Source: Actinophytocola xinjiangensis
Lineage (GTDB): Bacteria; Actinomycetota; Actinomycetes; Mycobacteriales; Pseudonocardiaceae
NCBI RefSeq assembly: GCF_001921215.1
Contig: NZ_MSIF01000002.1
Coordinates: 620,001 to 684,000 of the forward strand
DNA length: 64,000 nt
Direction of reading: 5' to 3'
The notes beneath the pieces are model-generated. The model was not told the origin of the DNA and made no database searches. It saw nothing but the letters and a program-made list of their open reading frames with translations. Both the position numbers and the translations under genes were made by a program. Shown in pieces: positions 12,307-48,094 of this stretch; within the stretch, counting starts at the first letter, position 1, and every line of letters starts with the position of its first letter.

Positions 12307-12313
12307 GATCCAC

Positions 12314-12574: not shown

Positions 12575-12608
12575 AGAAATGCGCTGGGGAAGCGGTAACG
12601 GGCTGGGG

Positions 12609-13361: not shown

Positions 13362-13538
13362 GATGGCGTTCCTCCAGGGGCACGTGGACACGACAAGTGT
13401 GGCCGCACAAGGAGATCGAACGCTGCCCGGCAGAAGAGTGACGCGGGTTACTCACTCTCGGTGATGGTTCGGGGCTGTTCCGGCGACCTCGTTCGGCGGC
13501 CGGTCGCGGGTGTCGGTGCTCGCTCATAGGGTGCCGCC

Positions 13539-15814: not shown

Positions 15815-16024
15815 CTCGCGTACCTGCCGAGAACGTGGCATCGGTAGGAGATCCCGCCGTCACGTCCGTCGACGTGCAGACCTGACCAGCGACGTCATGT
15901 CGACCGGACAGGACCGGAAACCCCTGCCTGCCCCACCCTCCCGCCGGACGGGACACAGGTCCGCCACAGACCGGACCCATGAGTGCGAATGCGAACACCG
16001 CTGCCCACACCCTTCCGCCGCCGC

Positions 16025-16063
16025 CAAGGGGGACCCCTTGTCTTGAGGATAGCCAAGGGGACC
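16025..16063. terminator. Alternative hairpins in convergent gap
   Basis: The 291-base gap between converging genes contains CAAGGGG/CCCCTTG (16025-16040, two-base centre). It also contains a second possible stem in which the CCCCTTG segment pairs instead with CAAGGGGACC at 16054-16063 across a 13-base loop. The two structures exclude each other. Probably a bidirectional terminator; the rest of the gap holds nothing recognisable. Confidence 0.5.
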
Positions 16064-16105
16064 GACGGTTCTGGGGGATGGCGGTGGGTTGTCCACAGGT
16101 GGGTG

Positions 16106-18530: not shown

Positions 18531-19730
18531 TCAGCGGGGGGAGATCAGCGCGCGCACGGCCGACTTCGCCCGCCGGTACCCGCGCAGCAGCACCTTGGCC
18601 TTCGGATGGTCCTCGTACCGTTCGAGCAGGACCCCGCGCACGCTGGTCGCACCCTCCGGCCACGCCGCCCGGTCCTCGGCGAAGCGCCGCCGCTCCTCGT
18701 CGACCAGTCGCACGGTCGCCGCCAGCGCGTAGACCGACGCGTCGAGCAGGTCCTCGGTGCGGGCGCTGTCGGGGTGCACCGCCTGGTCGCCGCGCCACGC
18801 CGGCAGCAGGTCCGCCAGGTCACCGACGACGTCGTAGCCGGCGGTGCGGATCGACTCGACGGCGTCCTTGCTCCACTGCTCGACCCACGGCCGGTCCTCG
18901 ACCGGCAGGCTCAGCGGGACCGAGCCCGGCCGCTCGGCCAGCACCTCGACGGCCAGGAAACGCTTGACCAGGCTCTCGTAGGCGCCCCAGTCGAGGTCGT
19001 CGCGCAGACCGGTCCGGTTGAGCAGGCGCAGCAGGTTGGTTTCCACCACGCCGGTCGACGGGTTGCGCACCTCCATCCGCGCCGGGCAGGACAGCGGGTC
19101 GATGCCGATCACCCTGGCGAAGCGCTCCCACAGCTCGTCGCGGCCCGCGCCCCTGGCCAGCGGCAGCACGTGCACCCGCTCCGGCGGCAGGTCCGCCGAC
19201 CAGGTGCGCAGGATCGCCGGCAGGTCCTGGTAGCCCCAGAACGTGTTCGCGAAGTACGGGTCGATCGTGTCGTCCGCGCCGCGCAGCGAGCGGCTGAACT
19301 CGTCGAAGGTCAGGGTGCCGGTGTTCTTGACGTCCTCCTGCCACACCGCCGGCAGCTGCCGGGCGAGGTCACGGGCCGTGCACACCAGGTGCACCTCGGC
19401 GTCGCCGAAGGACCCCACCGCGCGCCGGACCATCTCCGGCGTCGCGGCGGCGAGCATCTCGTGGGAGATCACCGACGTGCCCGGCCAGGCGCGGGCCTCG
19501 CCGGTGATCCGGTCCCACGCACCTTCCGTGGCGGGGTCGCGCACGTTGTGGAAGGTGCGTTCGAGCAGGTCCAGGGTGGCGAGGAACTGCTCGTTCGGCT
19601 GGCTGGCCGGGTACTTCACCCCGGTGTCGGCCAGGCTGTCTCTGTTGTGCCACATCACTTCCTGCAGGTAGGTGGTGCCGCTTTTGGGCGTGCCGATGTG
19701 CAGGAAGACGCGGTGATCGCAGACAGCCAT
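18531..19730 (-). CDS. Sulfotransferase-like protein
   Basis: 399 residues. The N-terminal FLHIGTPKSGTTYLQEVMW matches the 5'-phosphosulfate loop of the sulfotransferase superfamily, and the region around VHLVCTARDLARQLPAVWQ is where the 3'-phosphate contact lies. It belongs to a different subgroup from the sulfotransferase at 4.8-6.0 kb. ATG at 19730 with GAGG upstream. The acceptor is unknown; the long charged C-terminal tail (about residues 330-399) is unexplained. Confidence 0.8.
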   Translation of the reverse strand: MAVCDHRVFLHIGTPKSGTTYLQEVMWHNRDSLADTGVKYPASQPNEQFLATLDLLERTFHNVRDPATEGAWDRITGEARAWPGTSVISHEMLAAATPEMVRRAVGSFGDAEVHLVCTARDLARQLPAVWQEDVKNTGTLTFDEFSRSLRGADDTIDPYFANTFWGYQDLPAILRTWSADLPPERVHVLPLARGAGRDELWERFARVIGIDPLSCPARMEVRNPSTGVVETNLLRLLNRTGLRDDLDWGAYESLVKRFLAVEVLAERPGSVPLSLPVEDRPWVEQWSKDAVESIRTAGYDVVGDLADLLPAWRGDQAVHPDSARTEDLLDASVYALAATVRLVDEERRRFAEDRAAWPEGATSVRGVLLERYEDHPKAKVLLRGYRRAKSAVRALISPR

Positions 19731-19776
19731 GACGCCTCACCATAGGTGAACACGGTCAGTCGCTTCTCGGTACGGG

Positions 19777-21633
19777 TCAGATGACCTGCTCCAGCCTCGT
19801 GGCCAGGATCTTCGCGAACTTCGCCGGGTCGGGCAGGTCGCCGCCCTCGGCCAGCAGCGCCAGGTCGTGCACGAGCTGCGCGGTCTCGGCGAGCCGCTCG
19901 TCCTGCCCGCCGCGTTCGGCGTGGGCCGTGCGCAGGCCGGTGACCAGCGGATGTCCCGGGTTCAGTTCGAGGATCCGCTTGACCGGCGGCAGTTCCTGGC
20001 CCATCGCCCGGTACATCTTCTCCAGCTGCGGCGTCAGGTCGTGGTCGTCGCCGACGATGCAGGCCGGGGAGGTGGTCAGGCGGGTGGACAGGCGGACCTC
20101 CTTGACGGTGTCGCCAAGGGCGGTGGTCATCCAGCCGAGCAGGTCGGCGAACTCGCTGGTCCGCTCCTCGTCGGCCGGGGTCGGGTCGAGGTCGATCTGG
20201 CCCTTGGCGATCGACTGGAACTGCCTGCCGTCGAAGCCGCCGCCCTCGACCCACATCTCGTCGATCGGGTCGGTGAGGACGAGGACCTCGTAGCCCTTGT
20301 CGCGGAACGCCTCCATGTGCGGGGAGTTCTCGATGGCGGTGCGGGACTCGCCGGTCAGGTAGTAGATGTGCTCCTGGCCCTCCTTCATCCGCTCCACGTA
20401 GGCGGACAGGCGGGTCTGCTCGTCGGCGGAGTGGGTGGAGGGGAACGAGCAGATCTCCAGGATCGCGTCGCGGTTGTCCTGGTCGGCGACCAGGCCCTCC
20501 TTCATCACGCGGGAGAACTCCGACCAGAACGTCTGGTACTTCTCCTCCGGCAGCGCCTTGATCGTGGAGAGCACCTTGCGCACCAGGCGCTTGCGGATCA
20601 GCTGGATCTGGCGGTCACGCTGGAGGATCTCCCGCGACACGTTCAGCGACAGGTCCTGGGCGTCGACGACACCCTTGACGAACCGCAGGTACTCGGGGAC
20701 CAGCTCCTCGCAGTCCTCCATGATGAACACGCGCTTGACGTAGAGCTGGATACCGCGCTTGGCCTCGCGCACGAACAGGTCGAACGGCGCGCGCGAGGGG
20801 ATGAACAGCAGCGCCTGGTACTCGAAGGTGCCCTCGGCCTGGAGGCGGATGGTCTCCAGCGGGGCGTTCCAGTCGTGGCTGACGTGCCGGTAGAACTCGG
20901 TGATCTCCTCCTCGGACACGTCGCTGGCCGAGCGCGCCCACAGCGCCTTCATCGAGTTGACCGTCTCCGGCTCGCCCTCGCCGGACTCCGGGGCCATCCG
21001 GATCGGCCAGGTGATGAAGTCGGAGTAGCGCTTGACGATCGACCGCACGGTGGCGGGGGCGGCGTAGTCGTGGAGGTTGTCCTCCTGGTCCTCGGGCTTG
21101 AGGTGCAGGGTGACCGAGGTGCCCTGGGGCGCGTCCGGCGCCGGTTCGATGGTGTAGGTGCCCTCGCCGGTGGACTCCCAGCGCACGCCCTCGTCGGTGC
21201 CGGCGCGGCGGGTCACCAGGGTGACCTTGTCGGCGACCATGAACGTCGAGTAGAAGCCGACGCCGAACTGGCCGATCAGGTCGGCGGAGGCGGCGGCGTC
21301 CTTGGTCTCGCGCAGCTTGCCGAGCAGTTCGGCGGTGCCGGACTTGGCGATCGTGCCGATGAGCGCGACGACCTCGTCGCGGCTCATGCCGATGCCGTTG
21401 TCCCGGACGGTGAGCGTGCGGGCGGTCGGGTCGAGGTCCAACTCGATGTGCAGGTCAGCGGTGTCGGCCTGCAGGTCCTTGTCCTGGTAGGTCTCCAGGC
21501 GGAGCTTGTCCAGCGCGTCGGAGGCGTTGGACACCAGCTCGCGCAGGAAGACGTCCTTGTTGGAGTAGATCGAGTGGATCATCAGCTGGAGCAGCTGGCG
21601 GGCCTCGGACTGGAACTCGAGCGTCTCGGTCAC
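19777..21633 (-). CDS. htpG: Molecular chaperone HtpG (Hsp90)
   Basis: 618 residues, normal for bacterial Hsp90. The GHKL ATPase domain is intact: [45 protein letters not shown]. The middle domain carries [17 protein letters not shown] and [11 protein letters not shown], and the dimerisation domain closes the protein. The frame extends far upstream but that is a shadow of the divergent amylase. GTG at 21633 is preceded by AGAAGGAAATCCC, giving [15 protein letters not shown]. Confidence 0.96.
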
Positions 21634-33447: not shown

Positions 33448-34263
33448 TCAGCCCACCGGCGGCTTGCGGCCGACCCCGGCGTAGAGGCCGTCGGTCTCGC
33501 TGTCGTCGTTCTCGGGGGTGCGTTCGGGGCGCCACAGCGACGTGGTGACCAGGCCGGGCTCGGCCAGTTCGAAGTCGCCGAAGAACTCGAGGACCTCGGG
33601 TTTGGTGCGGGCGCGCACCGAGTTCTGGGACTTGCTCATCATCTCGGTCAGCTCGTCGCCCTTGATGACCGCGAAGTCGTCGGTCAGGTGGGTGAGGGCG
33701 AGGTAACTGCCCGGTGCCAGCGCTTCCCGGTACTCGGCGAACACACCGGCCGGGTCCTGGTGGTCGAGGACGTAGTGGCCGATGGTGATCGCGAGCAGCC
33801 CGATCGGCTGGTCGAAGTCCAGCATCCGCTGGGTCTCGCGGTCGTTGAGCACCAGGCCGGGCTTGGTGATGTCGGCCTGCAACATCACGGCGTTCTCGCT
33901 GCCCTCCAGCAGCAGCTGGCTGTGCGCGACGGCGACGTGTTCGTTGTCCACGTACACCACTCGGGTGTCGGCGTCGACGTCGCGGGCGATCTCGTGCACG
34001 TTGCCGACCGTCGGAATACCGGAGCCGAGGTCGAGGAACTGGCGGATTCCCTGACGCACCATGAACAGCACTGCCCGCCGCAGGAACGCCCGGTTCATGA
34101 TGGCGAAGCGCCTGGTCTCCGGCTGGACCCGGAGAATCTGTTCGATGAACGACCGGTCGACCTCGAAGTTGTGGTTCCCGCCGAGTAAGTAGTCGTACAT
34201 CCGCGCCGCGCTGGGTTTTTCAATGTCCACAGTGGACGGAATCCAACTGGTCTGTTGCGACAC
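33448..34263 (-). CDS. SAM-dependent methyltransferase, DUF574/Methyltransf_19 family
   Basis: 271 residues. Same hallmarks as the gene at 10.5 kb: EKPSAARMYDYLLGGNHNF, NRAFLRRAVLFMV, FLDLGSGIPTVGNVHE, VVYVDNEHVAVAHS. GTG start at 34263 after AGGGG. Divergently transcribed from another family member 193 bases away, so the two may share regulation. Substrate unknown. Confidence 0.93.
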   Translation of the reverse strand: MSQQTSWIPSTVDIEKPSAARMYDYLLGGNHNFEVDRSFIEQILRVQPETRRFAIMNRAFLRRAVLFMVRQGIRQFLDLGSGIPTVGNVHEIARDVDADTRVVYVDNEHVAVAHSQLLLEGSENAVMLQADITKPGLVLNDRETQRMLDFDQPIGLLAITIGHYVLDHQDPAGVFAEYREALAPGSYLALTHLTDDFAVIKGDELTEMMSKSQNSVRARTKPEVLEFFGDFELAEPGLVTTSLWRPERTPENDDSETDGLYAGVGRKPPVG

Positions 34264-34456: not shown

Positions 34457-35299
34457 ATGACCTCAACGAAGTCACCGAGCCAGGTTCCGGTCGGCGTCGA
34501 CCCGACACGGCCGAGCATCGCGCGTATCTACGGGGGATTCCTCGGCGGCAAGGACGTCTACGAGGTCGACCGGCAGGTGATGCGCAAGATCAACGACGCG
34601 GTGCCAGAGGCGGTGCACATCGCGAGAGGAAATCGCGCTTTCCTGAATCGCGCGTGCCGTTTCCTGTCCCGTGAGTCGCGGATCGACCAGTTCCTCGACT
34701 GCGGTTCCGGCTTACCGACGGCCGAGAACACCCATCAGATCGTGCAGCGCTTCAATCCCGAGGCGCGGGTGGTCTACGTGGACAACGACCCGGTGGTGCT
34801 CGCGCACGGACGCGCCCTGCTCACCGAGAACGAGAACGTGCTGATGGTGTCCGCCGACATCTTCAACGCGCCGGAAGTCATGGAGAACATGGTGGTCGGA
34901 AACCACCTCGATCTCACCGAGCCGGTGGTGTTGTTGCAGGTCGGCACGATGCACCACGTCGAGGGCGACGCGGTGGCGGTGATGCGCCGCTACATCGACG
35001 CGCTGGCGCCCGGCAGTTATGTGGTGTTCTCCCACTTCTTCGACCCCGAGGAGCCGGAGCTGACCCGCATCGCCCGGCGGATCGAGAACGTACTGGTCAA
35101 CGGGCCGATGGGCGCCGGGCGGTTCCGCACCCGCGCGGAGATCATGGAGATGCTGGAGGGTCTGGAGCTGGTGCCGTCCAACGACCTGGGCGACTCCGGG
35201 CTGGTGGCCTGTGACGAGTGGTGGCCGGACGGGCCGGCGCTCACCCCGCTCAGCGGTGCCGCGCGGTGCATCGTCGGGGCGGTCGGACGCAAGCCGTAG
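34457..35299 (+). CDS. SAM-dependent methyltransferase, DUF574/Methyltransf_19 family
   Basis: 280 residues. RPSIARIYGGFLGGKDVYEV, GNRAFLNRACRFL, FLDCGSGLPTAENTHQ and VVYVDNDPVVLAHGRALL place it in the family, but it departs from both paralogues in this window (YGGFLGG in place of YDYLLGG). ATG at 34457 with GGGGGAG upstream; the upstream in-frame extension is not conserved. It precedes the nucleoside operon by 177 bases, so it may or may not be part of it. Confidence 0.92.
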   Translation: MTSTKSPSQVPVGVDPTRPSIARIYGGFLGGKDVYEVDRQVMRKINDAVPEAVHIARGNRAFLNRACRFLSRESRIDQFLDCGSGLPTAENTHQIVQRFNPEARVVYVDNDPVVLAHGRALLTENENVLMVSADIFNAPEVMENMVVGNHLDLTEPVVLLQVGTMHHVEGDAVAVMRRYIDALAPGSYVVFSHFFDPEEPELTRIARRIENVLVNGPMGAGRFRTRAEIMEMLEGLELVPSNDLGDSGLVACDEWWPDGPALTPLSGAARCIVGAVGRKP

Positions 35300-35476: not shown

Positions 35477-36529
35477 ATGACTCCGAGGCCTCGGCTGCTG
35501 GGTCTGCTGACCATCGGCGTGCTGCTCGCCGGCTGCAACGCGGCCGCGAACGATGGCGGCGACGGCGGCGGCAGTGATGGTGGCGGCGGTACCGACGGGC
35601 CGTCGCTCGTGCTGGTCACGCCCAACCCGGTCGGCGTCAACGACTTCCTCAAGCTCGCCGTGGCCGGGGTCGAGGACGCCGCGAAGGAGCACGGCGGCAG
35701 CCAGAAGGTCTACCAGAGCACCGACCCCGCCTCCCTCCAGCAGAACGTCGCCGCCGCGGTCCGCGACAAGCCGGACGTGATCGTCGCCGTCGGGTTCAAC
35801 TTCGCCGACGTGCTCGCCCAGCAGGCCGAGCAGAACCCCGACCAGCAGTTCCTGTTCGTCGACTCGTGCACCGAGAAGGCCTACCCGAACGTCACCTGCG
35901 CGGTGTTCCGCGAGTACGAGGGCGTCTACCTGGCCGGCGCCGAGGCCGCGCTGCTGTCGAAGTCGGGCAAGGTCGGCGCGGTCGTCGCCCTGGACACCCC
36001 GCAGTTCCGCCGCTACTCGACACCCTTCGGCGAGGGCGCGGCCAAGGTCAAGCCGACGACCACGCTCAGCCCGCTGTTCATCGGCGGCGCGAACCCGTTC
36101 AACGACCCGGGCCGGGCCAAGCAGCTGACCGCGACCCTGGCCGGTCAGGGCGTGGACCACGTCATGGGCGCGGCGTCCGCGTCGGGCAACCTCGGTGTGT
36201 TCGAGGCGGCCAAGGAACACGGCATCTTCGCGTTCGGGGTGGACGCCAACCAGTGCCCGGCCAGCCCCGGCCAGGTGGTGGACAACGTGATCAAGCGCAC
36301 CGACGTGGTGATCACCGACGGTGTCTCGGCGATCCTCGACGGTGAGCGCGGTGAGGCCCGCTCCTACGGCGTCAAGGAGGAGGGCATCTCGCTGACCGGC
36401 CTCCAGCAGGACGCGGCGTCATCGCAGTGCGTGATCGTCGATCACCCGGACGTGATCGAGCAGGTCGGCACGCTGCGGGACGACATCGTCGCCGGCACGA
36501 TCACCGTCGCCGACCCGGCGCAGGGCTGA
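35477..36529 (+). CDS. BMP family nucleoside-binding lipoprotein
   Basis: 350 residues. Lipobox LLAGC ending at about residue 22, a G/D-rich linker, then a Bmp/PnrA-like binding domain (VTPNPVGVNDFLKLAVAGVE, FREYEGVYLAGAEAALLSKS, IFAFGVDANQCPA). Members bind nucleosides outside the membrane for the YufOPQ/BmpABC-type importer. ATG at 35477 with GGAGGG upstream. First gene of the operon, seven bases before the ATPase gene. Confidence 0.93.
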   Translation: MTPRPRLLGLLTIGVLLAGCNAAANDGGDGGGSDGGGGTDGPSLVLVTPNPVGVNDFLKLAVAGVEDAAKEHGGSQKVYQSTDPASLQQNVAAAVRDKPDVIVAVGFNFADVLAQQAEQNPDQQFLFVDSCTEKAYPNVTCAVFREYEGVYLAGAEAALLSKSGKVGAVVALDTPQFRRYSTPFGEGAAKVKPTTTLSPLFIGGANPFNDPGRAKQLTATLAGQGVDHVMGAASASGNLGVFEAAKEHGIFAFGVDANQCPASPGQVVDNVIKRTDVVITDGVSAILDGERGEARSYGVKEEGISLTGLQQDAASSQCVIVDHPDVIEQVGTLRDDIVAGTITVADPAQG

Positions 36530-36536
36530 CCGGCAC

Positions 36537-38237
36537 GTGACCCAGCCAGCGGTCCAGCTCACCGGGATCGTCAAGCGGTTCGGTGAGCTGCTCGCCAACG
36601 ACCACGTCGACCTGACCGTCGCGCGTGGCGAGATCCACGCGCTGATGGGCGAGAACGGTGCCGGCAAGTCCACCCTGATGTCGATCCTCTACGGACTGCT
36701 GCGCCCCGACGCCGGCACGATCGCCCTCGACGGCGAACCGGTGGTGTTCGACTCGGCGGCGCGGGCGATCGCCGCCGGAATCGGCATGGTGCAACAGGGT
36801 TTCGCACTGTTCGACTCGATGCCGGTGGTGGACAACGTGATCTACGGTGCCGAGCCGACCAGGCGCGGCCTGCTCGACCGGCGCGCCGCCACCGCCGCGG
36901 TCAGCGAGCTCGTCGAACGGCACGGCCTGCGGCTGGCGCCCACCGACCGCGTCGGCGACCTGCCGATCGGGGTGCGCCAGCAGGTGGAGATCCTCAAGCT
37001 GCTCTACCGCCGGGCGCGGGTGCTGATCCTCGATGAGCCGACCGCCGTGCTCACCCCGGCCGAGACCGAGCAGCTGTTCACCGTGCTGCGCGACCTCGCC
37101 GCCGACGGCCACACCGTGCTGCTGGTCACCCACAAGCTGCACGAGGTCACCGCTGTGAGTGACACCGTGACCGTGTTGCGTGACGGGAAGGTCACGATGA
37201 CCGGCCCGACGTCGGCCACCGGCCGGGCCGAACTGGCCAGCGCGATGACCGGCCGCGAGGTCGACCTCGACCGCGTGTACCCGGCTGGTCAGCCCGGCGC
37301 CGAGGCGCTGACGGTCACCGGGCTGACCGTCGACGGCCGCGCCGCCGGCCGGCCCGCCGTCGACGACGTGTCGCTGTCGGTGCGCGCCGGGGAGATCGTC
37401 GGGATCGCCGGGGTCGCCGGCAACGGTCAGACCGAACTGGTCGCGGCGATCGCCGGCCTGCTGCCCGCGCGCGGCTCGGTCACCGTGGGGGAGCGGGAGC
37501 TGTCCGGGCTGGGCGTGGCGCGGCGGCGGGCGGCCGGGCTCGCGCACATCCCCGAGGACCGCGCCGAGGTCGGCGCCGCCCCCGGCGCGCGGCTCACCGA
37601 CAACCTGGCCACCGGGTTTCACCGGCGGCCTCCCTTGCTACGCAAGGGTTTCCTGCGTTCGGGTGCGATGCGCACGCACGCCGAGCGGATCATCGAACGG
37701 TTCGGCGTGCGCGCACCCGGCCCGTCGGCCCCGATGCGCACCCTGTCCGGCGGCAACCAGCAGAAGGCGATCCTGGGCCGCGAGCTGACCCACGAGGCGC
37801 CGGTGCTGCTGGTCGAGCAGCCGACCCGGGGTGTGGACATCGGTGCGGTTGTCGGCATCCACACCGAACTGATCGCCTACCGCGACGCCGGGCACGCCGT
37901 GCTGCTGGTCTCCGCCGAACTCAGCGAGGTCCTGGGCCTGGCCGACCGCGTCCTGGTCATGTACGAGGGCCGGGTGGTCGCCGAGTTCCCCAAGACCGAG
38001 GCCGACCCGCACGCCATCGGCCTGGCCATGGCCGGCGGCGCGCCCCGGGGTGTGGCTGGCGGCACGGCAGAGGATTCGGCTGGTGGCGCGGCAGGTGGTG
38101 TGGCTGGCGCTGCTGGTGGCGATGAGGCCGATGTGGTCGGTGACGCCACTGGCCATGCGTCCGAAAACATGGCCGGAGACACCGCCGGGGACACAACCGG
38201 CGATGCGGCCGAGGACAGCGGCGGAGGGGCGGCGTGA
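36537..38237 (+). CDS. Nucleoside ABC importer, double ATPase
   Basis: 566 residues with two ABC domains, as in YufO/RbsA-type proteins. First domain: GENGAGKSTLMSILYGLL and LILDEPTAVLTP; second: GVAGNGQTELVAAIAGLL, LSGGNQQKAILGRELT, LLVEQPTRGVDIGA. Unusually, it ends in about 60 residues of low-complexity G/A/D/T/E sequence after residue 500, encoded with less biased third positions than the rest. GTG start; its stop overlaps the next permease gene (GTGA). Confidence 0.93.
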   Translation: MTQPAVQLTGIVKRFGELLANDHVDLTVARGEIHALMGENGAGKSTLMSILYGLLRPDAGTIALDGEPVVFDSAARAIAAGIGMVQQGFALFDSMPVVDNVIYGAEPTRRGLLDRRAATAAVSELVERHGLRLAPTDRVGDLPIGVRQQVEILKLLYRRARVLILDEPTAVLTPAETEQLFTVLRDLAADGHTVLLVTHKLHEVTAVSDTVTVLRDGKVTMTGPTSATGRAELASAMTGREVDLDRVYPAGQPGAEALTVTGLTVDGRAAGRPAVDDVSLSVRAGEIVGIAGVAGNGQTELVAAIAGLLPARGSVTVGERELSGLGVARRRAAGLAHIPEDRAEVGAAPGARLTDNLATGFHRRPPLLRKGFLRSGAMRTHAERIIERFGVRAPGPSAPMRTLSGGNQQKAILGRELTHEAPVLLVEQPTRGVDIGAVVGIHTELIAYRDAGHAVLLVSAELSEVLGLADRVLVMYEGRVVAEFPKTEADPHAIGLAMAGGAPRGVAGGTAEDSAGGAAGGVAGAAGGDEADVVGDATGHASENMAGDTAGDTTGDAAEDSGGGAA

Positions 38238-39256
38238 ACCGCCTGGGGCGGTGGCGTGGTGCGCTGACCGTCGGCGTCGCCGTGGCGGCGGCGCTGGTGC
38301 TGGGTGCGATCCTGTTGGCCGCGACCGGGGCGAATCCGCTGGAGGCCGCCGGGGCCATCGTCACCGGGGCGTTCGGTCCGGACGGTATCCAGGACACCCT
38401 GGCCTACGCCGTGCCGGTCGCCGGGATGGCCACGGCGCTCGCCATCCCGCTGCGGGCCGGTCTGGTCAACCTCGGTGGTGAGGGGCAGTTGGTGCTCGGC
38501 GCGATCAGCGCGGTCGCCGTCGGTCTGCACGTGCCGGGGCCGTTGGGGCTGGTCGCGGCCCTGGTCGCCGGGATGCTCGCCGGCGGACTCTATGCGGCGG
38601 CCGCCGCGTTGTGTGAGACCCGACTCGGGGTTCCGCTGCTGGTCACGACGTTGCTGCTGAGCTACCCGGCCATGTCGCTCGCCGCCTACCTGGTGCGCTT
38701 CCCGATGCGTGACCAGGGCTCCAGCCTGCCGCAGAGTGCCCAGCTGCCGCCGGACGTGCGGCTGCCCGCGCTGGCCGGCAACGGCCTGACCGTCGGCCTG
38801 TTCCTGATCGTGGCGGCCGTCGCCGTGTACGCGGTGGTCGACGCCCGCACGCCGGCCGGGTTCGAGGCGCGGGTCACCGGCTGGGGCCCGCGTTTCGCCC
38901 AGTACGCCGGTATCGACCGGCCGCGTACGACGCTGCGGCTGCTGGCCTGCTCCGGCGGCCTGGCCGGCCTGGTCGGCGCGATCGTGGTGCTCGGCTTCCC
39001 GTACCGGTTCATCGACGGCGCGCTGATCACCCCGCAGTACACCTGGATCGGTCTGCTGGCCGCGTTGCTGGCGGCGGCGAGTCCACTGGGGACGCTGGTC
39101 GCCGCGCTGTTCTTCGCCGCGTTGACCAGCGGAGGGTTCGCCATGGAACGCGAGACCCAGGTACCGCGCGAGCTGACGGCGGTACTCCAGGCGGTACTGA
39201 TCATCTTCCTGGCGGCCACGACCGGGCTGCTGCGCAGGCGAAGGAGCGCGGCGTGA
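38234..39256 (+). CDS. Nucleoside ABC importer permease 1
   Basis: 340 residues of the BPD_transp_2 family (YufP/BmpC type). Many membrane segments; core motif PLRAGLVNLGGEGQLVLGAI near residue 75 matches the family NIGxEGQ signature, and QYAGIDRPRTTLRLLACSGG is the cytoplasmic coupling region. GTG start overlaps the ATPase stop and its stop overlaps the next start, so expression is tightly coupled. Confidence 0.93.
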   Translation: MNRLGRWRGALTVGVAVAAALVLGAILLAATGANPLEAAGAIVTGAFGPDGIQDTLAYAVPVAGMATALAIPLRAGLVNLGGEGQLVLGAISAVAVGLHVPGPLGLVAALVAGMLAGGLYAAAAALCETRLGVPLLVTTLLLSYPAMSLAAYLVRFPMRDQGSSLPQSAQLPPDVRLPALAGNGLTVGLFLIVAAVAVYAVVDARTPAGFEARVTGWGPRFAQYAGIDRPRTTLRLLACSGGLAGLVGAIVVLGFPYRFIDGALITPQYTWIGLLAALLAAASPLGTLVAALFFAALTSGGFAMERETQVPRELTAVLQAVLIIFLAATTGLLRRRRSAA

Positions 39257-40164
39257 TCGACGCGGCACTGTTCTCCTCCGCGCTCGGGGCGCTGACCCCG
39301 ATCCTGCTCGCCGCGCTCGCCGGGGCGCTGTGCCAGCGGGCCGGGGTGTTCAACATCTCGCTCGAGGGCACCATGCTCGTCGGCTGCTTCGCCGGGGTCG
39401 CCGGCAGCTGGTACTCGGGCAGCGTGTGGGTCGGCGTGCTCACCGCGCTGCTGGCCGGCACCGCGTACTCGCTGATCCTCGCGGTCGGCACGGTCACCTT
39501 CGCCGGTGACGCGATCGTGCTCGGCGTCGCGGTCAACCTGCTGGCCGTCGGTCTCACCAGCTTCCTCATCCAGACCGTGTTCGGCACCAGGGGATCGTTC
39601 AGCGACCCGACGCTGCCCGGGCTCGACCCGGTGGAGATCCCGCTGCTGCGCGACGTCCCGTTCCTCGGTGAGGTCCTCTCCGGACACTCCGCGCTGGTCT
39701 ACGTGTCGTGGATCGCGGTCCCGGTGCTGGCGCTGGTGCTCTACCGGCTCCCGGTCGGTCTGCGGCTGCGCGGTGTCGGTGAACGGCCGGAGGCCGCCGC
39801 CAGCCTCGGGGTGGCCGTCGACCGCTACCGCTACGGCGTGATCCTGGCCGGTGGCGCGCTGTGCGGGCTGGCCGGGGCGCAGCTGGCGCTGGGCAACGTG
39901 ACGATGTTCTCGGAGAACATGACCGCCGGCCGGGGCTGGATCGCCGTGGTCGCGGTCATGCTCGGCCGGGCGCTACCGTGGGGTGTGCTGGCCGCGTCGG
40001 TCCTGTTCGGACTGGCGGAGGCGTTCGGGTTCCGGTTGCAGGGCATCGGGCTGCCCCAGCAGGCGACCGACGCCGCACCGTACGTGGTGACCCTGCTCGC
40101 CCTGTTCGTGTTCAGCGCGCGGCTGCGATCCCGCCGCGCCACCAGGAGGACGACCGTCACATGA
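39253..40164 (+). CDS. Nucleoside ABC importer permease 2
   Basis: 303 residues, BPD_transp_2 family (YufQ type). LCQRAGVFNISLEGTMLVG is the counterpart of the NIGxEG signature; GVGERPEAAASLGVAVDRYR is the ATPase-contact region. GTG at 39253 overlaps the previous gene, and the stop overlaps the ATG of the phosphorylase (ATGA). Confidence 0.93.
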   Translation: MIDAALFSSALGALTPILLAALAGALCQRAGVFNISLEGTMLVGCFAGVAGSWYSGSVWVGVLTALLAGTAYSLILAVGTVTFAGDAIVLGVAVNLLAVGLTSFLIQTVFGTRGSFSDPTLPGLDPVEIPLLRDVPFLGEVLSGHSALVYVSWIAVPVLALVLYRLPVGLRLRGVGERPEAAASLGVAVDRYRYGVILAGGALCGLAGAQLALGNVTMFSENMTAGRGWIAVVAVMLGRALPWGVLAASVLFGLAEAFGFRLQGIGLPQQATDAAPYVVTLLALFVFSARLRSRRATRRTTVT

Positions 40165-40892
40165 ATGATTTCCTGCCCATCACGAAGATCCCGCGCACCG
40201 GGTTGCCGCAACGCGCGCTGGTCGTCGGCGATCCGGAACGGGCCAGTGCGGTCGCCGGCCTGCTCACCGACTCCGTCCTCATCGGACAGAACAGGGAGTA
40301 CCGCAGCTTCACCGGCACCTGGCGCGGCGTGCCGGTGGTGGTGTCCTCGCACGGGGTCGGCGGGCCGGGCGCGCTGTGCCAGCTCGGCGAACTCGCCGAG
40401 GCCGGCGTGCGCACGTTCCTGCGGTTCGGCACGGCCGGCGCGCTGCGCGCCGACATCGCCGACGGTGACCTGGTGATCGCCGAGGCCGCGGTGCGTGACG
40501 ACGGCGTCACCGCCCAGCTCATCCACCCCGAGTACCCGGCCGTGGCCACCCCGGAGGCCGTGCTGGCCCTGGACCGGGCCGCCGCCGCGCACCAGCGCCA
40601 CGCCCACCGGGGCGTGGTGTGGACCAGAGCGGCGTTCAGCCCGATGGTCCTGGAACTGCCGATGCGCGACTACCTCGCCGCGCGCGTGATCGCCATCGAG
40701 ATGGAGCTCTCGACGCTGCTGGTCTTCGCCGGGCTGCGCGGACTGGTGGCCGGTGGTGTGCTGGTGATCGACGGGAACGCCACCGTCGACAACGACGACC
40801 CGACCAGCTACGACCCGCACCGCCAGGTGGTGGCCGACGCGGTCGCCGCCGGCAGCGCCGTGGCCCTCGACGCACTGGTGGAGCTGACATGA
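40161..40892 (+). CDS. Nucleoside phosphorylase (uridine phosphorylase/PNP superfamily)
   Basis: 243 residues. ALVVGDPERASAVAGLL gives the phosphate-binding loop, FLRFGTAGALRADIADGDLV the central motif, and AIEMELSTLLVF the ribose/base region with the family Glu-Met-Glu. It would split an imported nucleoside into base and (modified) ribose 1-phosphate. In this operon the expected product is 5-methylthioribose 1-phosphate, making it a non-orthologous stand-in for MtnP; substrate is inferred from context. ATG overlaps the permease stop and the TGA overlaps the next ATG. Confidence 0.88.
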   Translation: MNDFLPITKIPRTGLPQRALVVGDPERASAVAGLLTDSVLIGQNREYRSFTGTWRGVPVVVSSHGVGGPGALCQLGELAEAGVRTFLRFGTAGALRADIADGDLVIAEAAVRDDGVTAQLIHPEYPAVATPEAVLALDRAAAAHQRHAHRGVVWTRAAFSPMVLELPMRDYLAARVIAIEMELSTLLVFAGLRGLVAGGVLVIDGNATVDNDDPTSYDPHRQVVADAVAAGSAVALDALVELT

Positions 40893-42049
40893 CCGAGGAC
40901 TGGCGCGACGCCGCCGACCAGCTCGCGCGCACCCTGCGCGCCGACGCCCCCCACCGTGAGCAGGCCGCCGCCGAACCCGAGGCCGAGGTCGCCCTGCTGC
41001 GCGCCTCCGGGCTGCTGACCCTGCTGCTGCCGGCGTCGGCGGGCGGGCGCGGCGCCGGGTGGCTGGCGGCCAACGAGACCGCGCGGACGGTGGCCGCCGC
41101 CGACGCGTCGGTCGGCCACCTGCTCGGCTACCACTACCTGCAACTGTGGCGTACCGAGCTGTTCGGCCGGCCCGACCTGGTGGAGCGCCTGCACCGCGAC
41201 ACCGTCGCCGGGAACCTGTTCTGGGCCGGGGTGAGCAACCCGCTGGACGCCGCGCTGGAGCTGACCCCGGTCGAGGGCGGGTTCCGCGTCGAGGGGCGCA
41301 AGAGCTTCGCCACCGGCGCGAGCGTGGCCGACCGGCTGGTGGTCAGCGCGACCCGCGTCGACAGCGGCCAGAAGCTCACCTTCGTCGTCGACGCGCACGC
41401 GCCGGGCCTGAGCTACCTGCACGACTGGGACAACCTCGGTCAGCGGCTGACCGCCAGCGGCGGCGTGGTGTTCCGGGACGTGCACGTGCCGGACGAGGAC
41501 GTGCTGGGGGTGCATGACGAGACGTCGGTGCGCGCGTCGCTGGCGGCCCTGGGTTTCCAGCTGATGCTCGCCCAGATCTACGTCGGCCTCGCCGAGGGCG
41601 CGCTGACCGAGGCCGCCGAGTACACCAGGACCAAGACCCGCGCCTGGACTCTGTCCGATGTGGACGAAGCGGTCGCCGACCCGTACATCCTCGTCGGCTA
41701 CGGTGAACTGGTCGCCCAGACCAGGGCGGCCGGCGCGCTGACCGACCGCGCGGCGGCGGCGCTCGGCGCGGCGTTCGACCGGGGCGACGCACTGTCCGAA
41801 CAGGAGCGTGGGGAGGCCGCGGTGACGATCTCGGCGGCCAAGGTGGTGGCCACCAGGGTCGCCAACGAGGCCGGCTCGAAGATCTACGAGTTCACCGGGG
41901 CCAGGGCCAGTGCCAACAAGTACGGCCTGGACCGGTTCTGGCGCAACGCCCGCACGCTCACCCTGCACGACCCGGTGGCCTACAAGGCCCGCGAGGTCGG
42001 CGCGCACTTCCTCACCGGTGAGCCGCCGCGCCTGTCGGGGTACAGCTGA
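40889..42049 (+). CDS. Acyl-CoA dehydrogenase-fold flavoprotein (DszC/SfnB-like)
   Basis: 386 residues. Acyl-CoA dehydrogenase fold: N-terminal helical part, a middle region ELTPVEGGFRVEGRKSFATG, and C-terminal region RASANKYGLDRFWRNARTLT with TLHDPVAYKAREVG near the end. That C-terminal WRNARTLTLHDPV pattern is typical of flavin-dependent monooxygenases and sulfur-acquisition oxidoreductases (DszC, SfnB) rather than of true fatty acyl-CoA dehydrogenases. Its place inside a methylthio-sugar pathway suggests a sulfur-linked oxidation, but the step is unknown. Coupled to both neighbours. Confidence 0.82.
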   Translation: MTEDWRDAADQLARTLRADAPHREQAAAEPEAEVALLRASGLLTLLLPASAGGRGAGWLAANETARTVAAADASVGHLLGYHYLQLWRTELFGRPDLVERLHRDTVAGNLFWAGVSNPLDAALELTPVEGGFRVEGRKSFATGASVADRLVVSATRVDSGQKLTFVVDAHAPGLSYLHDWDNLGQRLTASGGVVFRDVHVPDEDVLGVHDETSVRASLAALGFQLMLAQIYVGLAEGALTEAAEYTRTKTRAWTLSDVDEAVADPYILVGYGELVAQTRAAGALTDRAAAALGAAFDRGDALSEQERGEAAVTISAAKVVATRVANEAGSKIYEFTGARASANKYGLDRFWRNARTLTLHDPVAYKAREVGAHFLTGEPPRLSGYS

Positions 42050-43038
42050 TGCCCGCGCCGACGCTGGCCGACAGCGTGCGTCTGGCCGACGACGGGGTGC
42101 ACATCCTGGACCGCCGGGTGTTCCCGGCGCGCCGGGAGTGGGTGCGCTGCGCGGGTGTCGAGGACGTGGCGAAGGCCATCGAGGACATGGTCACCCAGTC
42201 CTCCGGCCCGTACTTCGCCGCGCTGTGGGGCATGGTGCTCGCCGCCCGTGAGGCGGTGGAGCGGCCCGACCCGCTGGCCCACGTCCAGGCCGCCGGCGCC
42301 CGGCTGATCGCCACTCGGCGCACCAACAACCACATCGGTACGGCCGTCCGAACCGTACTGTCCAGAATGGACTCTTCGGATCTGGTCGGGTCGGCGCTCG
42401 CCGGTGCGCGCGAGGGCGACCGGCGCTACCGCGACCGCAGCCGCGCTCTCGGTGAGCACACCGCGACACTGTTGCCGGACAACGCTTCCCTGCTCACCCA
42501 CTGCTGGGCCGACCTGTACCTCGTCGGACTGGTGGACGCCCTGCGCGCGGCCGGCAAGAGCTTCACCGTGCACTGCACCGAGACCCGACCGTACCTGCAG
42601 GGCGCCAAGCTCACCGCCACCACGCTCGCCGAGATGGGCGTGGACACCACGCTGATCACCGACGGCATGGGCGCGGCCGTGCTGGCCGACGGCCGGATCG
42701 ACGCGCTGGTCACCGCCGCCGACCGGGTCACCCTGGACGGTCACGTGGTGAACAAGGTCGGCACACTGGGCCTGGCTGTCGCCGCGCACACCTTCGGCGT
42801 GCCGTTCCTGGCCATGGTCCAGGCCCCCGACCGGGCCGCGCCGACCGCCGCCGACGTGCCGATCGAGTACCGTAACGGTGCCGAGGTGCTCACCGCGGCC
42901 GGCGTCACCGAGCCGGGAATCCGTGGCCTGTACCCGGCTTTCGACATCACTCCGCCCCGGTTCGTGTCCACTGTGGTCACCGACAGCGGGGCGTTCGACC
43001 CGACCGGACTCGCCGACTACCCCCAGGAGGAACCGTGA
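42049..43038 (+). CDS. MtnA-like sugar 1-phosphate isomerase
   Basis: 329 residues of the eIF2B/MtnA family. The two catalytic regions of methylthioribose 1-phosphate isomerase are kept: the Cys in LLTHCWADL and the Asp in TAADRVTLDGHVVNKVGTLG, as is ETRPYLQGAKLTA. The glycine-rich loop that normally reads VRGAPAIG is replaced by TQSSGPYFA, so substrate or phosphate contacts may differ. Isomerises the aldose phosphate made by the phosphorylase to a ketose phosphate. ATG overlaps the preceding stop by one base. Confidence 0.85.
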   Translation: MPAPTLADSVRLADDGVHILDRRVFPARREWVRCAGVEDVAKAIEDMVTQSSGPYFAALWGMVLAAREAVERPDPLAHVQAAGARLIATRRTNNHIGTAVRTVLSRMDSSDLVGSALAGAREGDRRYRDRSRALGEHTATLLPDNASLLTHCWADLYLVGLVDALRAAGKSFTVHCTETRPYLQGAKLTATTLAEMGVDTTLITDGMGAAVLADGRIDALVTAADRVTLDGHVVNKVGTLGLAVAAHTFGVPFLAMVQAPDRAAPTAADVPIEYRNGAEVLTAAGVTEPGIRGLYPAFDITPPRFVSTVVTDSGAFDPTGLADYPQEEP

Positions 43039-43745
43039 CGATCGCCGTCGACTGGGTGGTCCTCGACATCGAGGGCACGCTCACCGCGACCAGCCAGGTG
43101 CACGTCGTGCTCTACGACTACGCGCGACCCCGGCTCGGCCCGTGGATCGACGGGCACGGCGACGACCCGGTCGTCGCCGACGCGGTCGCGCAGGTCCGTG
43201 AGCTGGGCGGGCTGTCCGCCGACGCCGGCACCGACGAGATCGTGCGGGTGCTGCACGGGTGGATGTCGGCCGACCAGAAGATCGCGCCGCTGAAGACCCT
43301 GCAGGGTCTGATCTGGCAGCGCGGCTACGCCGAGGGCGACCTGACCACCGAGTTCTTCCCCGACGTGGCGCCCGCGCTGCGTGCCTGGCACGCGGCGGGT
43401 CTGCGGCTGGCGGTGTTCTCCTCCGGCTCGGTCGCCGGCCAGGTCGCGTCGTTCTCCCGCACCACCGACGGCGACGTCACCGGCCTGTTCGAGCAGCACT
43501 TCGACACGGTCAACGCCGGCCCCAAGCGCGAGGAGCCGTCCTACCGCACGATCGCCAAGGGCCTGGACGCCGAGCCGGACCGGATCGTGTTCCTGTCCGA
43601 CGTGCCGGCCGAACTGCACGCCGCGGCCGCCGCCGGCTGGCACACCGTGGGCCTCGCCCGCCCCGGCGAGCCGTTCGGCGACGCCGACTTCGGCCCGCAC
43701 CAGGCCATCGCGTCGTTCGACGAGCTGACCCTGGAGCGGGCGTGA
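43035..43745 (+). CDS. mtnC: Enolase-phosphatase E1-like HAD protein
   Basis: 236 residues. HAD nucleophile in VLDIEGTLT (family: DIEGTT), WMSADQKIAPLKTLQGLIWQ, FSSGSVAGQ, NAGPKREEPSYRTIAKGL and FLSDVPAELHAAAAAGW all match acireductone synthase, which enolises and dephosphorylates 2,3-diketo-5-methylthiopentyl 1-phosphate. The first cap-side segment (TATSQVHVVLYDYARP) departs from the usual sequence. GTG overlaps the mtnA-like stop; its own stop overlaps mtnB. Confidence 0.9.
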   Translation: MTIAVDWVVLDIEGTLTATSQVHVVLYDYARPRLGPWIDGHGDDPVVADAVAQVRELGGLSADAGTDEIVRVLHGWMSADQKIAPLKTLQGLIWQRGYAEGDLTTEFFPDVAPALRAWHAAGLRLAVFSSGSVAGQVASFSRTTDGDVTGLFEQHFDTVNAGPKREEPSYRTIAKGLDAEPDRIVFLSDVPAELHAAAAAGWHTVGLARPGEPFGDADFGPHQAIASFDELTLERA

Positions 43746-44344
43746 CCGCGCTGGCCGAGGCCGGGCGCGCGCTGGCCGCCGAGGCCGCCCGGTACGCGGG
43801 GATGGGCTGGATGCGCGGCACGTCGGGCAACCTGTCGGTGGTGCTCGACCGCGACCCGCTGCGCCTGGCGGTCACCGCCAGCGGCCTGGACAAGGGCGAG
43901 CTGACCGAGACCGACGTGGTCGAGGTCGACGCCGAGGGCGGCGCGGTGTCCGGCGGCGTGCCGTCGGCCGAGGCCGGGCTGCACGCCCGGATCGCCGCGA
44001 TCTCCGGCGCCGGTGCGGTCGTGCACGTACACGCGTTGGCCCCGGTGTTGGCGGCGCAGCGCTGGCCCGGTGGGGTCCCGCTGCGCGACCTGGAGATGCT
44101 CAAGGGCTTCGGCCGGGCGGCCCACGACGACCTGGTCACCGTCCCGGTGATCGACAACGGCCAGGACATGCGGGTGCTGGGCGAGGCGTTCCAACGCGGC
44201 TACCGGGCCGACACGCCAGCGCTGATCGTGGCCCGCCACGGGATCTACGTGTGGGGCGCGGACCTGCGCGAGGCCCGTCACCGGCTGGAATGCCTGGAGT
44301 GGTTGCTCAGGTTCACCCTGGGGACGATCCTGGACGGTAGTTGA
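43742..44344 (+). CDS. mtnB: Methylthioribulose 1-phosphate dehydratase
   Basis: 200 residues of the class II aldolase/adducin fold. MGWMRGTSGNLSVV is the N-terminal signature, VVHVHALAPVL supplies two zinc His ligands and ARHGIYVWGADLREARHRLE the third. Length and motifs fit MtnB, which dehydrates methylthioribulose 1-phosphate. GTG at 43742 overlaps the mtnC stop. The stand-alone mtnD follows after 12 bases. Confidence 0.92.
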   Translation: MTALAEAGRALAAEAARYAGMGWMRGTSGNLSVVLDRDPLRLAVTASGLDKGELTETDVVEVDAEGGAVSGGVPSAEAGLHARIAAISGAGAVVHVHALAPVLAAQRWPGGVPLRDLEMLKGFGRAAHDDLVTVPVIDNGQDMRVLGEAFQRGYRADTPALIVARHGIYVWGADLREARHRLECLEWLLRFTLGTILDGS

Positions 44345-44356
44345 AAGGGGACTGTG

Positions 44357-44935
44357 ATGACGCTGCTCACCGTGTGGGACGACACCGAGCCGCAGGTGCC
44401 GCTGCTGCGCACCGAGGACGGCGAGGAGATCGCCGCCGAGCTCAAGGAGCTGGGGGTGCGCTTCGAACGCTGGCCGGTCGTGGAGACGCTCTCGCCCGAG
44501 CCCACCTCCGAGGAGGTCCTGGAGGCCTACGCCGACCGGGTGGCCCGCGTGGTCGAGTCCGAGGGCTACATCCTGGTCGACGCCCTGCACATGACCCCGG
44601 CCGACACCGACGAGTGGGCCGAGAAGGCCGCCACCGCCCGCCAGAAGTTCCTCGCCGAACACACCCACGACGACGACGAGGACCGCTTCTTCGCCCGTGG
44701 CGCCGGCGTGTTCTACCTGCACGCCCAGGGCAAGGTGTACGCGGTGCTGTGCGAGGCCGGTGACCTGCTCAGCGTCCCCGCCAACACCACCCACTGGTTC
44801 GACATGGGCACCCGCCCCGACTACGTCTCCATCCGCTTCTTCCACGACGACGACGGCTGGGTCGGCAACTTCACCGGCAACCGCCTCGCCGAGACCTTCC
44901 CGGACTTCGACACCCTCATGGCCTCCCGCTCCTGA
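44357..44935 (+). CDS. mtnD: Acireductone dioxygenase
   Basis: 192-residue cupin. The metal ligands follow the Klebsiella pattern: EHTHDDDEDRFFARGAG (His, His, Glu) and VPANTTHWFDMG (third His). With iron the enzyme makes the keto acid of methionine plus formate; with nickel it makes methylthiopropionate and CO. ATG at 44357 with AAAGGGG upstream; a GTG one codon earlier is possible. Last gene of the operon; it meets a converging PIN remnant after three bases with no clear terminator. Confidence 0.95.
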   Translation: MTLLTVWDDTEPQVPLLRTEDGEEIAAELKELGVRFERWPVVETLSPEPTSEEVLEAYADRVARVVESEGYILVDALHMTPADTDEWAEKAATARQKFLAEHTHDDDEDRFFARGAGVFYLHAQGKVYAVLCEAGDLLSVPANTTHWFDMGTRPDYVSIRFFHDDDGWVGNFTGNRLAETFPDFDTLMASRS

Positions 44936-47401: not shown

Positions 47402-48094
47402 ATGAATTCCCTGCGCACAGTTCTCCGGATATTCGTCATCGCCATTGCCGCCGTACTCGCACTGCCCCTGCTCCCGGCCGGGGTCGCGTTCGGTCACGGA
47501 TCGGCGATCGGTCCACCATCACGCCACTACGGTTGTTGGGACCGTTGGGGCTCCGATTTCCAGAACCCGGACATGGCCACCGAGGACCCCATGTGCTGGC
47601 AGGCCTGGCAGTCCGACACCAACGCGATGTGGAACTGGAACGGCCTCTACCGCGAGAGTGTCGACGGTGACCACCAGGCCGTCATCCCCGACGGCCAGCT
47701 GTGCAGCGGCGGCCGGACCGGCGGCGGCCGCTACGCCGCCCTCGACGAGCCGGGCCCGTGGGAGGCGGCACCGGTCAACAACCAGTTCACCTTCCGCACC
47801 CACGACCAGGCCCGCCACGGCGCCGACTACTACCGCCTCTACGTCACCCGTCAGGGATTCGATCCACTGACCGACGAACTGGGGTGGGGTGATCTCCAAC
47901 TCGTCGCCGACACCGGGGTGATCCCACCCGGTGAGGGAACGCCGGAAAACGATCCCGTACTGAATGGCGTCACCGTTTCGATCAACGTCAACGCCCCCGG
48001 TCGCACCGGCCGCCACATTGTGTACATGATCTGGCAGGCCAGCCATTTCGACCAGACCTTCTACTCGTGCAGTGACGTGGTCTTCCCCGGATGA
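47402..48094 (+). CDS. Secreted lytic polysaccharide monooxygenase, AA10
   Basis: 230 residues. The signal peptide ends in GVAFG, leaving His32 as mature N-terminus, the first half of the copper histidine brace (HGSAIGPPSRHYGC). The second brace His is in QARHGADYYRLYVT, and the axial aromatic is in DQTFYSCSDVVF. It oxidatively cleaves chitin or cellulose; the substrate is not certain, and no carbohydrate-binding module is attached. ATG at 47402 with GGAGG six bases upstream. Confidence 0.93.
   Translation: MNSLRTVLRIFVIAIAAVLALPLLPAGVAFGHGSAIGPPSRHYGCWDRWGSDFQNPDMATEDPMCWQAWQSDTNAMWNWNGLYRESVDGDHQAVIPDGQLCSGGRTGGGRYAALDEPGPWEAAPVNNQFTFRTHDQARHGADYYRLYVTRQGFDPLTDELGWGDLQLVADTGVIPPGEGTPENDPVLNGVTVSINVNAPGRTGRHIVYMIWQASHFDQTFYSCSDVVFPG

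Follow-up and report, generated by a model that had tools for sequence, protein, structure and literature searches.

5'-Methylthioadenosine (MTA) is shed by other cells, and the universal pathway of methionine salvage handles it with MtnP or MtnN/MtnK, followed by the enzymes MtnA to MtnE. The present work concerns a ten-gene operon of the soil actinobacterium Actinophytocola xinjiangensis at positions 35477 to 44935 of a stretch of 64,000 nucleotides (NZ_MSIF01000002.1, 620,001-684,000), hereafter the window, which combines mtn genes with a predicted nucleoside importer, a nucleoside phosphorylase (PNP) and a flavoenzyme (FLA). The closest described systems are the methylthioribose importers mtrACB and mtnXYZ, found with mtnKABCDE in the MetJ regulon of gammaproteobacteria (PMC3228920, PMC4239095). 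Methylthioribose transporters are also mentioned in PMC6302742, and E. coli has been described to excrete methylthioribose (PMC3228920).

The operon shares with these systems an importer coupled to, or co-regulated with, salvage genes. It differs in that theirs serve the free sugar and go with the kinase MtnK (for mtrACB by prediction), whereas here a nucleoside-type importer goes with a phosphorylase. With universal methionine salvage it has in common the homologues of mtnA, mtnB, mtnC and mtnD, but it carries neither mtnE nor the trimeric MtnP, its MtnA stays below the family cut-off, and an importer, a phosphorylase of another branch and FLA are added. From the dihydroxyacetone phosphate (DHAP) shunt it is distinguished by MtnC and MtnD, with no class II aldolase route in their place. 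The original prediction knew of no described system with this composition; in the open-access literature searched this holds for the combination of nucleoside importer, phosphorylase, mtn set and FLA, but not for an importer joined to a salvage set as such, which is described for the free sugar. No dedicated bacterial importer for the MTA nucleoside was found in that literature. The operon belongs within methionine salvage, as a variant with a predicted importer, a phosphorylase and a flavoenzyme of its own, and it is probably dedicated to scavenging 5'-methylthio-type purine nucleosides from outside, in the simplest case MTA or deaminated MTA.

Gene content and organisation of the operon

The operon is a tight array of ten open reading frames (ORFs) on the plus strand, each complete with its start and stop codon. 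The importer set is complete: a predicted nucleoside-binding lipoprotein of the BMP/PnrA type (35477-36529; Pfam Bmp, 129.6 bits; lipobox LLAGCN), the ATPase of an ATP-binding cassette (ABC) importer with two fused nucleotide-binding domains (36537-38237; ABC_tran in two stretches) and the permeases PER1 (38234-39256; BPD_transp_2, 95.5 bits) and PER2 (39253-40164; BPD_transp_2, 108.5 bits). These are followed by PNP (40161-40892; PNP_UDP_1, 115.3 bits), of the branch of uridine phosphorylases and hexameric PNPs and proposed to be a 5'-methylthionucleoside phosphorylase, and by FLA (40889-42049), a group D flavin monooxygenase of the DszC/MsuC/SfnB kind with Acyl-CoA_dh domains and a DszC-type match in PDB. 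The last four genes encode a divergent type I methylthioribose-1-phosphate isomerase (MtnA, 42049-43038; Pfam IF-2B, 156.7 bits), the acireductone synthase or enolase-phosphatase (MtnC, 43035-43745; TIGR01691, 203.7 bits with a cut-off of 128.1; Pfam Hydrolase of the HAD type), the methylthioribulose-1-phosphate dehydratase (MtnB, 43742-44344; TIGR03328, 160.9 bits with a cut-off of 137.05; Pfam Aldolase_II) and the acireductone dioxygenase (MtnD, 44357-44935, with an alternative GTG start at 44354; Pfam ARD, 99.7 bits with a cut-off of 27). According to Pfam, mtnE is absent among the ten genes; aminotransferases elsewhere in the genome were not searched for.

Seven of the nine junctions overlap, by 4 bp at ATPase-PER1, PER1-PER2, PER2-PNP, PNP-FLA, MtnA-MtnC and MtnC-MtnB and by 1 bp at FLA-MtnA. 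Gaps are left between lipoprotein and ATPase (7 bp) and between MtnB and MtnD (12 bp with the ATG start, 9 bp with GTG). The coupled single-strand organisation claimed in the original prediction is borne out, and so is, by Pfam and NCBIfam, the claimed content of a BMP importer, a phosphorylase, a DszC/SfnB-like flavoenzyme and mtnA, mtnC, mtnB and mtnD genes. No sigma-70-type promoter was found when looked for. Control of the operon by a riboswitch or terminator was rejected, since in the operon region no Rfam family reaches the gathering score and the two terminator-like sites, with 2.4 expected from shuffled sequence, are not above chance.

Conservation of the operon

The ARD family (PF03079) was searched in 150 genomes of the same family (Pseudonocardiaceae), of which 75 match at E <= 0.001 and 70 over the cut-off, and 36 ARD loci from 35 family genomes, together with four regions of the A. 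xinjiangensis genome, were compared by tblastn with the ten operon proteins. All ten genes are syntenic in six of the 36 loci, there at 57-90% protein identity (L053, L061, L067, L068, L071 and L072; L numbers denote loci and G numbers genomes), and also in L091 of Amycolatopsis oliviviridis. A chance arrangement is thereby excluded, and the ten-gene array is confirmed as a real, conserved combination. The neighbourhood search for BMP importers with mtn genes that had been suggested at the outset gives the full gene order in seven genomes besides that of the window, the eight being the latter, three of Actinophytocola (L067, L068, L071), that of A. oliviviridis, and G043, G085 and G099. Overlaps are found in five of the six loci at PNP-FLA and in four each at PER2-PNP and FLA-MtnA; start calls are approximate, and the non-overlapping junctions among these three span 8-334 bp, with 38-41 bp and 108-334 bp at PER2-PNP and FLA-MtnA in L053 and L061. 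About 0.8 kb lie between mtnB and mtnD in L068, and mtnB matches in two pieces in L068 and L071.

Thirteen loci contain FLA-mtnA-mtnC-mtnB-mtnD without importer or PNP (core-only loci). Seven carry window-type mtn genes without FLA (mtnACBD in four, mtnCBD in two, mtnBD in L054), and ten show the different order mtnA-mtnB-mtnD-mtnC, without FLA and at 31-54% identity, mtnA being undetected in two. In L054 (G063, 3288-13687) the mtnB-mtnD pair and a weak FLA-like ORF (76 bits) are found among genes for an O-acetylhomoserine sulfhydrylase, an SsuA-like binding protein and an OsmC protein, a neighbourhood that looks like one for sulfur scavenging.

Entry enzymes in the genome and in the family

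The genome of the window has a single match each for mtnC and mtnD, and five for the mtnB model, of which only the operon copy is over the cut-off. MtnA-type genes are two; the second, located on contig C4, is of the canonical type (359.6 bits with a cut-off of 279), and tblastn with the ten operon proteins gave no mtn partner within 18 kb around it. A second complete mtn set elsewhere, against which the original prediction was to be measured, was looked for and, apart from this canonical MtnA, not found. No MtnP is over the cut-off and MtnK gives no match. Three further PNP_UDP_1 proteins are one PUNP equivalog and two proteins of about 620 amino acids with RCC1 or WD40 repeats, and none of the PNP_UDP_1 proteins found in this genome is over an MtnN cut-off. 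As MtnP over the cut-off, MtnK, a further mtnC or mtnD and a further mtnB over the cut-off are all missing, the operon PNP is the best candidate for the entry enzyme, and its proposed replacement of MtnP is supported in the sense of a likely stand-in. Class II aldolases unlinked to the operon are present in the same genome. In the two long proteins, encoded in the regions L003 and L004 (contigs C56 and C15), the PNP_UDP_1 domain joined to the RCC1 or WD40 repeats is nucleosidase-like.

MtnP, MtnK and PNP were surveyed in 42 family genomes, picked by hand from those above. A PNP of the operon type (E < 1e-130) is present in seven, exactly the ten-gene ones, with weaker matches (E 5e-35 to 4e-20) in G099, as a second copy, G021 and G065. 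Trimeric MtnP is over the cut-off in four (G145, G094, G119 and G010) and MtnK in none. G094 carries, in addition to the ten-gene operon, a separate mtnA-B-D-C cluster, after which come an aminotransferase and MtnP, an arrangement that is also present in G119. Since both clusters occur in G094, the ten-gene operon is, at least there, not simply housekeeping salvage. A complementary distribution, with MtnP in the core-only and PNP in the ten-gene genomes, was considered and rejected, as MtnP is over the cut-off in none of 14 core-only genomes (those of the 13 core-only loci and G123, locus L094).

The nucleoside phosphorylase

The best PDB matches of PNP are Plasmodium PNPs. The nearest NCBIfam models are uridine phosphorylase and DeoD; the protein stays under every NCBIfam cut-off and gives no match at E <= 0.001 to the trimeric MtnP model TIGR01694. 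In the Plasmodium enzyme PfPNP, a 5'-methylthioinosine/inosine phosphorylase, the residues round the 5'-methylthio group are His7, Val66, Val73, Tyr160 and Met183 (Donaldson et al., PMC3885546), and the operon PNP has Ile7, Val66, Cys73, Phe159 and Met181 at these sites. It thus shares Val66 and Met183 with PfPNP, together with the catalytic Asp204 (PfPNP Asp206) and the phosphate-binding R27/R45/R88, but differs at His7, Val73 and Tyr160. Position 7 is Ile or Val, never His, in all seven PNP orthologues. The nearer relatives L182, L183 and L184 have a hydrophobic residue at position 7, where the alignment is gappy in two of them, and Val66; four distant relatives that were aligned have His7 with Ile66/Ile73. 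PfPNP with His7Phe or His7Ser favours methylthioinosine, at inosine/methylthioinosine ratios of 0.3 and 0.1 (PMC3885546). The pocket evidence is mixed and leans toward 5'-methylthio substrates without proving them.

When the PNP alignment was run against 396 Actinomycetota genomes, 46 matched at E <= 1e-25, and the three nearest outside the A. xinjiangensis genome were read in their context. One of them fits 5'-modified nucleosides and two are neutral or fit ordinary ones. The first is G257. Genes for BMP, ATPase and permease are found there at a distance of 4-8 kb from a PNP (48%), which also has two amidohydrolases close by; the best models of these two are N-ethylammeline chlorohydrolase/TRZ-ATZ hydrolase, and 5'-deoxyadenosine/MTA deaminase models match as well, all below cut-off.

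The importer and its counterpart in Microbacteriaceae

The best PDB match of the lipoprotein is Lbp (7x0r), and BmpA, BmpD and TmpC are matched too. Of the BmpA residues named in PMC13325309, the alignment finds the aromatic and ribose-binding F27, F176, D98, D225 and K242, which stack the base and hold the ribose, kept and D19, N28 and F151 not kept. Sugar-type and B6-type models lead the NCBIfam matches of the ATPase, and every one of the 25 matches listed is below cut-off. The importer is predicted to be a nucleoside importer of the BMP/PnrA kind. It has in common with the PnrA, TmpC and BmpD importers the BMP lipoprotein with its stacking Phe and ribose-binding residues, the fused ATPase and the two permeases, and it differs from them by its coupling to methionine salvage and by the loss of D19/N28 of BmpD. 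Contact of the binding protein with the 5'-hydroxyl was tried as evidence and dropped, since the residues that differ concern the base in BmpD.

Five loci of Microbacteriaceae (Naasia L120, L122 and L134; Agreia L126 and L128) carry FLA, at about 50% identity, with mtnA, mtnB, mtnC and mtnD in another gene order, and all five contain an ABC ATPase match of 193-215 bits; L125 and L133 have FLA, mtnD and the ATPase only. Parts of three of these loci were compared with family models. RbsB and the ribose permease are the best models for the binding protein of L126 and for the permeases of L126 and L134, and AraG is the best for the ATPase of L126, none of them reaching its cut-off. Three kinases were scanned in L128 and L134; one of L128 is over the MtnK cut-off (369.9 bits with a cut-off of 275), while a second MtnK-like protein of L128 and one of L134 narrowly miss it (268.9 and 267.8 bits). 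The Agreia locus L128 accordingly has two MtnK-like kinases, at 15725-16951 and 19328-20563.

One core seems to be served by two entry modules, a sugar importer with a kinase or a nucleoside importer with a phosphorylase. Each would be expected to yield methylthioribose 1-phosphate, and no other argument speaks as strongly for the production of this compound by the operon PNP. The operon names a candidate MTA importer, paired with a phosphorylase whose branch is commonly annotated as uridine or purine phosphorylase, and the two modules offer a starting point for the annotation of BMP and ribose-type importers with no ligand assigned.

The salvage enzymes

With 190.9 bits the operon MtnA falls short of the TIGR00512 cut-off of 279. 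In the window-type MtnA the canonical Cys and Asp, which we take to be the catalytic residues, are kept, and RGAPA(I/L)G is replaced by QSSGPYF or QSSGPLY in all six rows, while it is kept in all three canonical rows. No second clear case of type I MtnA was found in the sample of 396 Actinomycetota genomes, the copy of the window scoring 609.9 bits and the next 249. MtnD has no NCBIfam match; its motifs HTHxxxE and HWFD, presumably the metal ligands, are kept. The motifs of the operon MtnB, MtnC and MtnD are common to the loci of the mtnA-B-D-C kind.

The flavoenzyme

FLA is homologous over its full length to DszC-type enzymes (257.9 bits in PDB) and to the methanesulfinate monooxygenase MsuC (252.8 bits), with which an NPLD stretch aligns. 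It reaches no NCBIfam cut-off, the closest models being DszC (284.7 bits with a cut-off of 850) and SfnB (269.4 with a cut-off of 430.9). Group D enzymes of Acinetobacter baylyi oxidise dimethyl sulfide and its sulfoxide, and Dms1-3 are placed in the same group by the paper that describes this (PMC13352529). FLA thus resembles the sulfur oxygenases of group D, which depend on reduced flavin mononucleotide (FMNH2), by its full-length homology to DszC, SfnB and MsuC and by the NPLD stretch, but it is set apart from them by its scores and by its place in a supported clade of its own that is tied to mtn genes.

This clade was obtained from the best 80 loci of at least 585 contig matches to the FLA alignment, with the presence of mtn genes scored by tblastn above 85 bits. 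All four mtn genes are present in 43 of these loci, only mtnD in two more and none in 35; four are ten-gene loci (the contigs of L067, L068 and L071, and L091). In the tree of 81 rows (80 loci and the window) all 46 mtn-linked rows lie inside a clade of 54 with support 100/98, the other eight being two of Herbiconiux and six of Saccharopolyspora, Micromonospora and Streptomyces. In five of those six, an ORF listing examined by eye has a pyridoxal phosphate (PLP) enzyme, an ATP-grasp-like ligase, methyltransferases and major facilitator superfamily proteins recurring in several. From the tree, FLA appears to be a long-standing partner of mtnACBD, recruited elsewhere at a later time. The original prediction had treated the flavoenzyme as the extra of the ten-gene form, and this was not borne out: FLA with mtnACBD is commoner in the loci seen than the importer with PNP, and it is these that look like the add-on.

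An accessory gene recurring beside FLA was sought by clustering the ORFs of 46 loci with a crude ORF caller. None was singled out by eye among those of the 40 largest clusters that were listed; these consisted of the genes of the operon and its importer, antisense ORFs that are false, genes common to Lentzea loci or to Saccharothrix loci, and a few more distant genes found in at least two genera. In tblastn against plasmids FLA matched 628 records, with a best identity below 60% in 625 and of 60-80% in three. The non-mtn loci L112, L116, L119, L124 and L127 (around 3500-12500) hold FLA relatives in clusters of a different sort, which look like small-molecule biosynthesis; L116 encodes an SbnA-like PLP enzyme as well as a ligase whose C-terminal domain is that of L-amino acid ligases, and L119 an enolase-superfamily racemase-like protein. 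The FLA-mtn locus L118, recorded as Nocardia sp. NRRL S-836, is nested among Lentzea rows, which suggests a misnamed strain.

By analogy with its relatives, FLA may be an oxygenase of a methylthio compound, and its conservation may point to a sulfur-oxygenation step so far missing from the methionine salvage of Pseudonocardiaceae and Microbacteriaceae. The two clusters of the second kind (mtnA-B-D-C) that were read closely have an aminotransferase where the operon has none but has FLA, which suggests, without showing it, that the end product is the substrate of FLA. A wider proposal is offered tentatively, as possible rather than probable: FLA would be an undescribed actinobacterial salvage step that oxygenates the methylthio group of the end product and releases its sulfur to assimilation in place of the aminotransferase, and with interchangeable entry modules, including the first described dedicated MTA importer, the pathway would feed on the MTA or methylthioribose of others.

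Proposed pathway and alternative explanations

In the proposed pathway the BMP lipoprotein and the ABC importer would bring the nucleoside in, and PNP, as pocket and genome context in part suggest, would split it with phosphate into the purine and methylthioribose 1-phosphate, replacing MtnP or MtnN/MtnK. By homology, the divergent MtnA would isomerise methylthioribose 1-phosphate, and MtnB, MtnC and MtnD would convert the product to 4-methylthio-2-oxobutyrate (KMTB) and formate. As the operon has no mtnE, general aminotransferases are proposed to form methionine; other aminotransferases performing the MtnE step are discussed in PMC3228920. The most uncertain step is that of FLA which, with FMNH2 from a reductase encoded elsewhere, might oxygenate the sulfur of a methylthio compound of the pathway, most likely KMTB, methanethiol derived from methionine or an S-modified entry compound, and so open a route to sulfur assimilation.

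Several observations weigh against MTA scavenging. The 13 core-only loci have no importer or PNP, and their genomes have no close PNP orthologue and no MtnP or MtnK over the cut-off (MtnN was not sought), so the FLA-mtnACBD set can live on some other entry route; each has an MtnP-model match below the cut-off, such as the PUNP of the A. xinjiangensis genome also gives. The lipoprotein gives no evidence for a methylthio group, since Asp19 and Asn28 are tied to the base in BmpD (PMC7093131). The four relatives with His7 also lack D204 and resemble uridine phosphorylases, so that the contrast in the pocket may reflect the base and not the 5' group. In PfPNP, His7Ala did not shift the preference (ratio 2.2) and Tyr160Phe, to which F159 of the operon PNP corresponds, lowered methylthioinosine use at least tenfold (PMC3885546). 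An adenosine deaminase-like gene near the PNP relative in G174 and a sugar-phosphate aldolase/dehydrogenase near that in G418 fit ordinary nucleosides too. Beside FLA no flavin reductase or desulfonase was recognised, the neighbouring clusters being judged by eye and not family-scanned. The earlier claim of feeding on external MTA therefore stands as regards an importer and a phosphorylase that feed the mtn set, for which some pocket residues and the Microbacteriaceae swap speak, while MTA as the ligand is not set apart from other 5'-modified or ordinary purine nucleosides.

The operon could instead take up ordinary purine nucleosides (inosine, guanosine or adenosine), with the mtn genes as housekeeping salvage that shares the transcript by chance. 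The families of the PNP fold are mostly named after ordinary nucleosides, F159 favours ordinary substrates in PfPNP (PMC3885546), the operon holds the only mtnC, the only mtnD and the only mtnB over the cut-off of the genome, and a near PNP relative lies with the adenosine deaminase-like gene. This explanation nevertheless appears unlikely, as the overlaps cross the borders between importer, PNP, FLA and mtn genes and recur in four or five of the six ten-gene loci, the His at position 7 is missing in all seven orthologues, a separate PUNP already handles ordinary purines, and in G094 salvage has a further cluster, which includes an aminotransferase and MtnP. A modified thionucleoside, with a longer S-alkyl group or an oxidised sulfur, might also be imported and be made acceptable to the mtn enzymes by FLA acting first, on it or on the sugar phosphate. 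The position of FLA ahead of mtnA, the changed MtnA loop and the Agreia locus with two MtnK-like kinases would suit such an order of events. We consider it distinctly unlikely, since sulfur oxygenation would not obviously give an mtn substrate, and FLA is kept with mtnACBD in the 13 of 36 loci where no importer was seen, which argues for an internal, common substrate.

The changed loop of the type I MtnA would equally agree with 5'-deoxyadenosine or another 5'-deoxynucleoside as substrate, the mtn enzymes then acting on 5-deoxyribose phosphates. Enzymes of the DHAP shunt serve both MTA and 5'-deoxyadenosine (PMC12632272, PMC10986504), and amidohydrolases of the 5'-deoxyadenosine/MTA deaminase type lie near the related PNP and importer of G257. 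Such a substrate is nonetheless quite improbable here: MtnC and MtnD are present with motifs as in the methionine branch, the operon has no aldolase of the DHAP-shunt type, the relatives of FLA are sulfur oxygenases, and a Microbacteriaceae locus carries MtnK.

Neighbouring genes and other features of the window

The genes on either side do not appear to belong to the operon. Upstream are two divergent Methyltransf_19 (S-adenosyl methyltransferase) genes, at 33451-34263 on the minus and 34457-35296 on the plus strand, while the downstream side has two minus-strand ORFs, one PIN-like and the other larger and matched by no Pfam family. Also downstream, at 47405-48091, the window contains a gene for a lytic polysaccharide monooxygenase (LPMO_10). 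Across the window only the F6 small RNA (RF01791), at 7220-7276 with 57.4 bits, reaches its Rfam gathering score.

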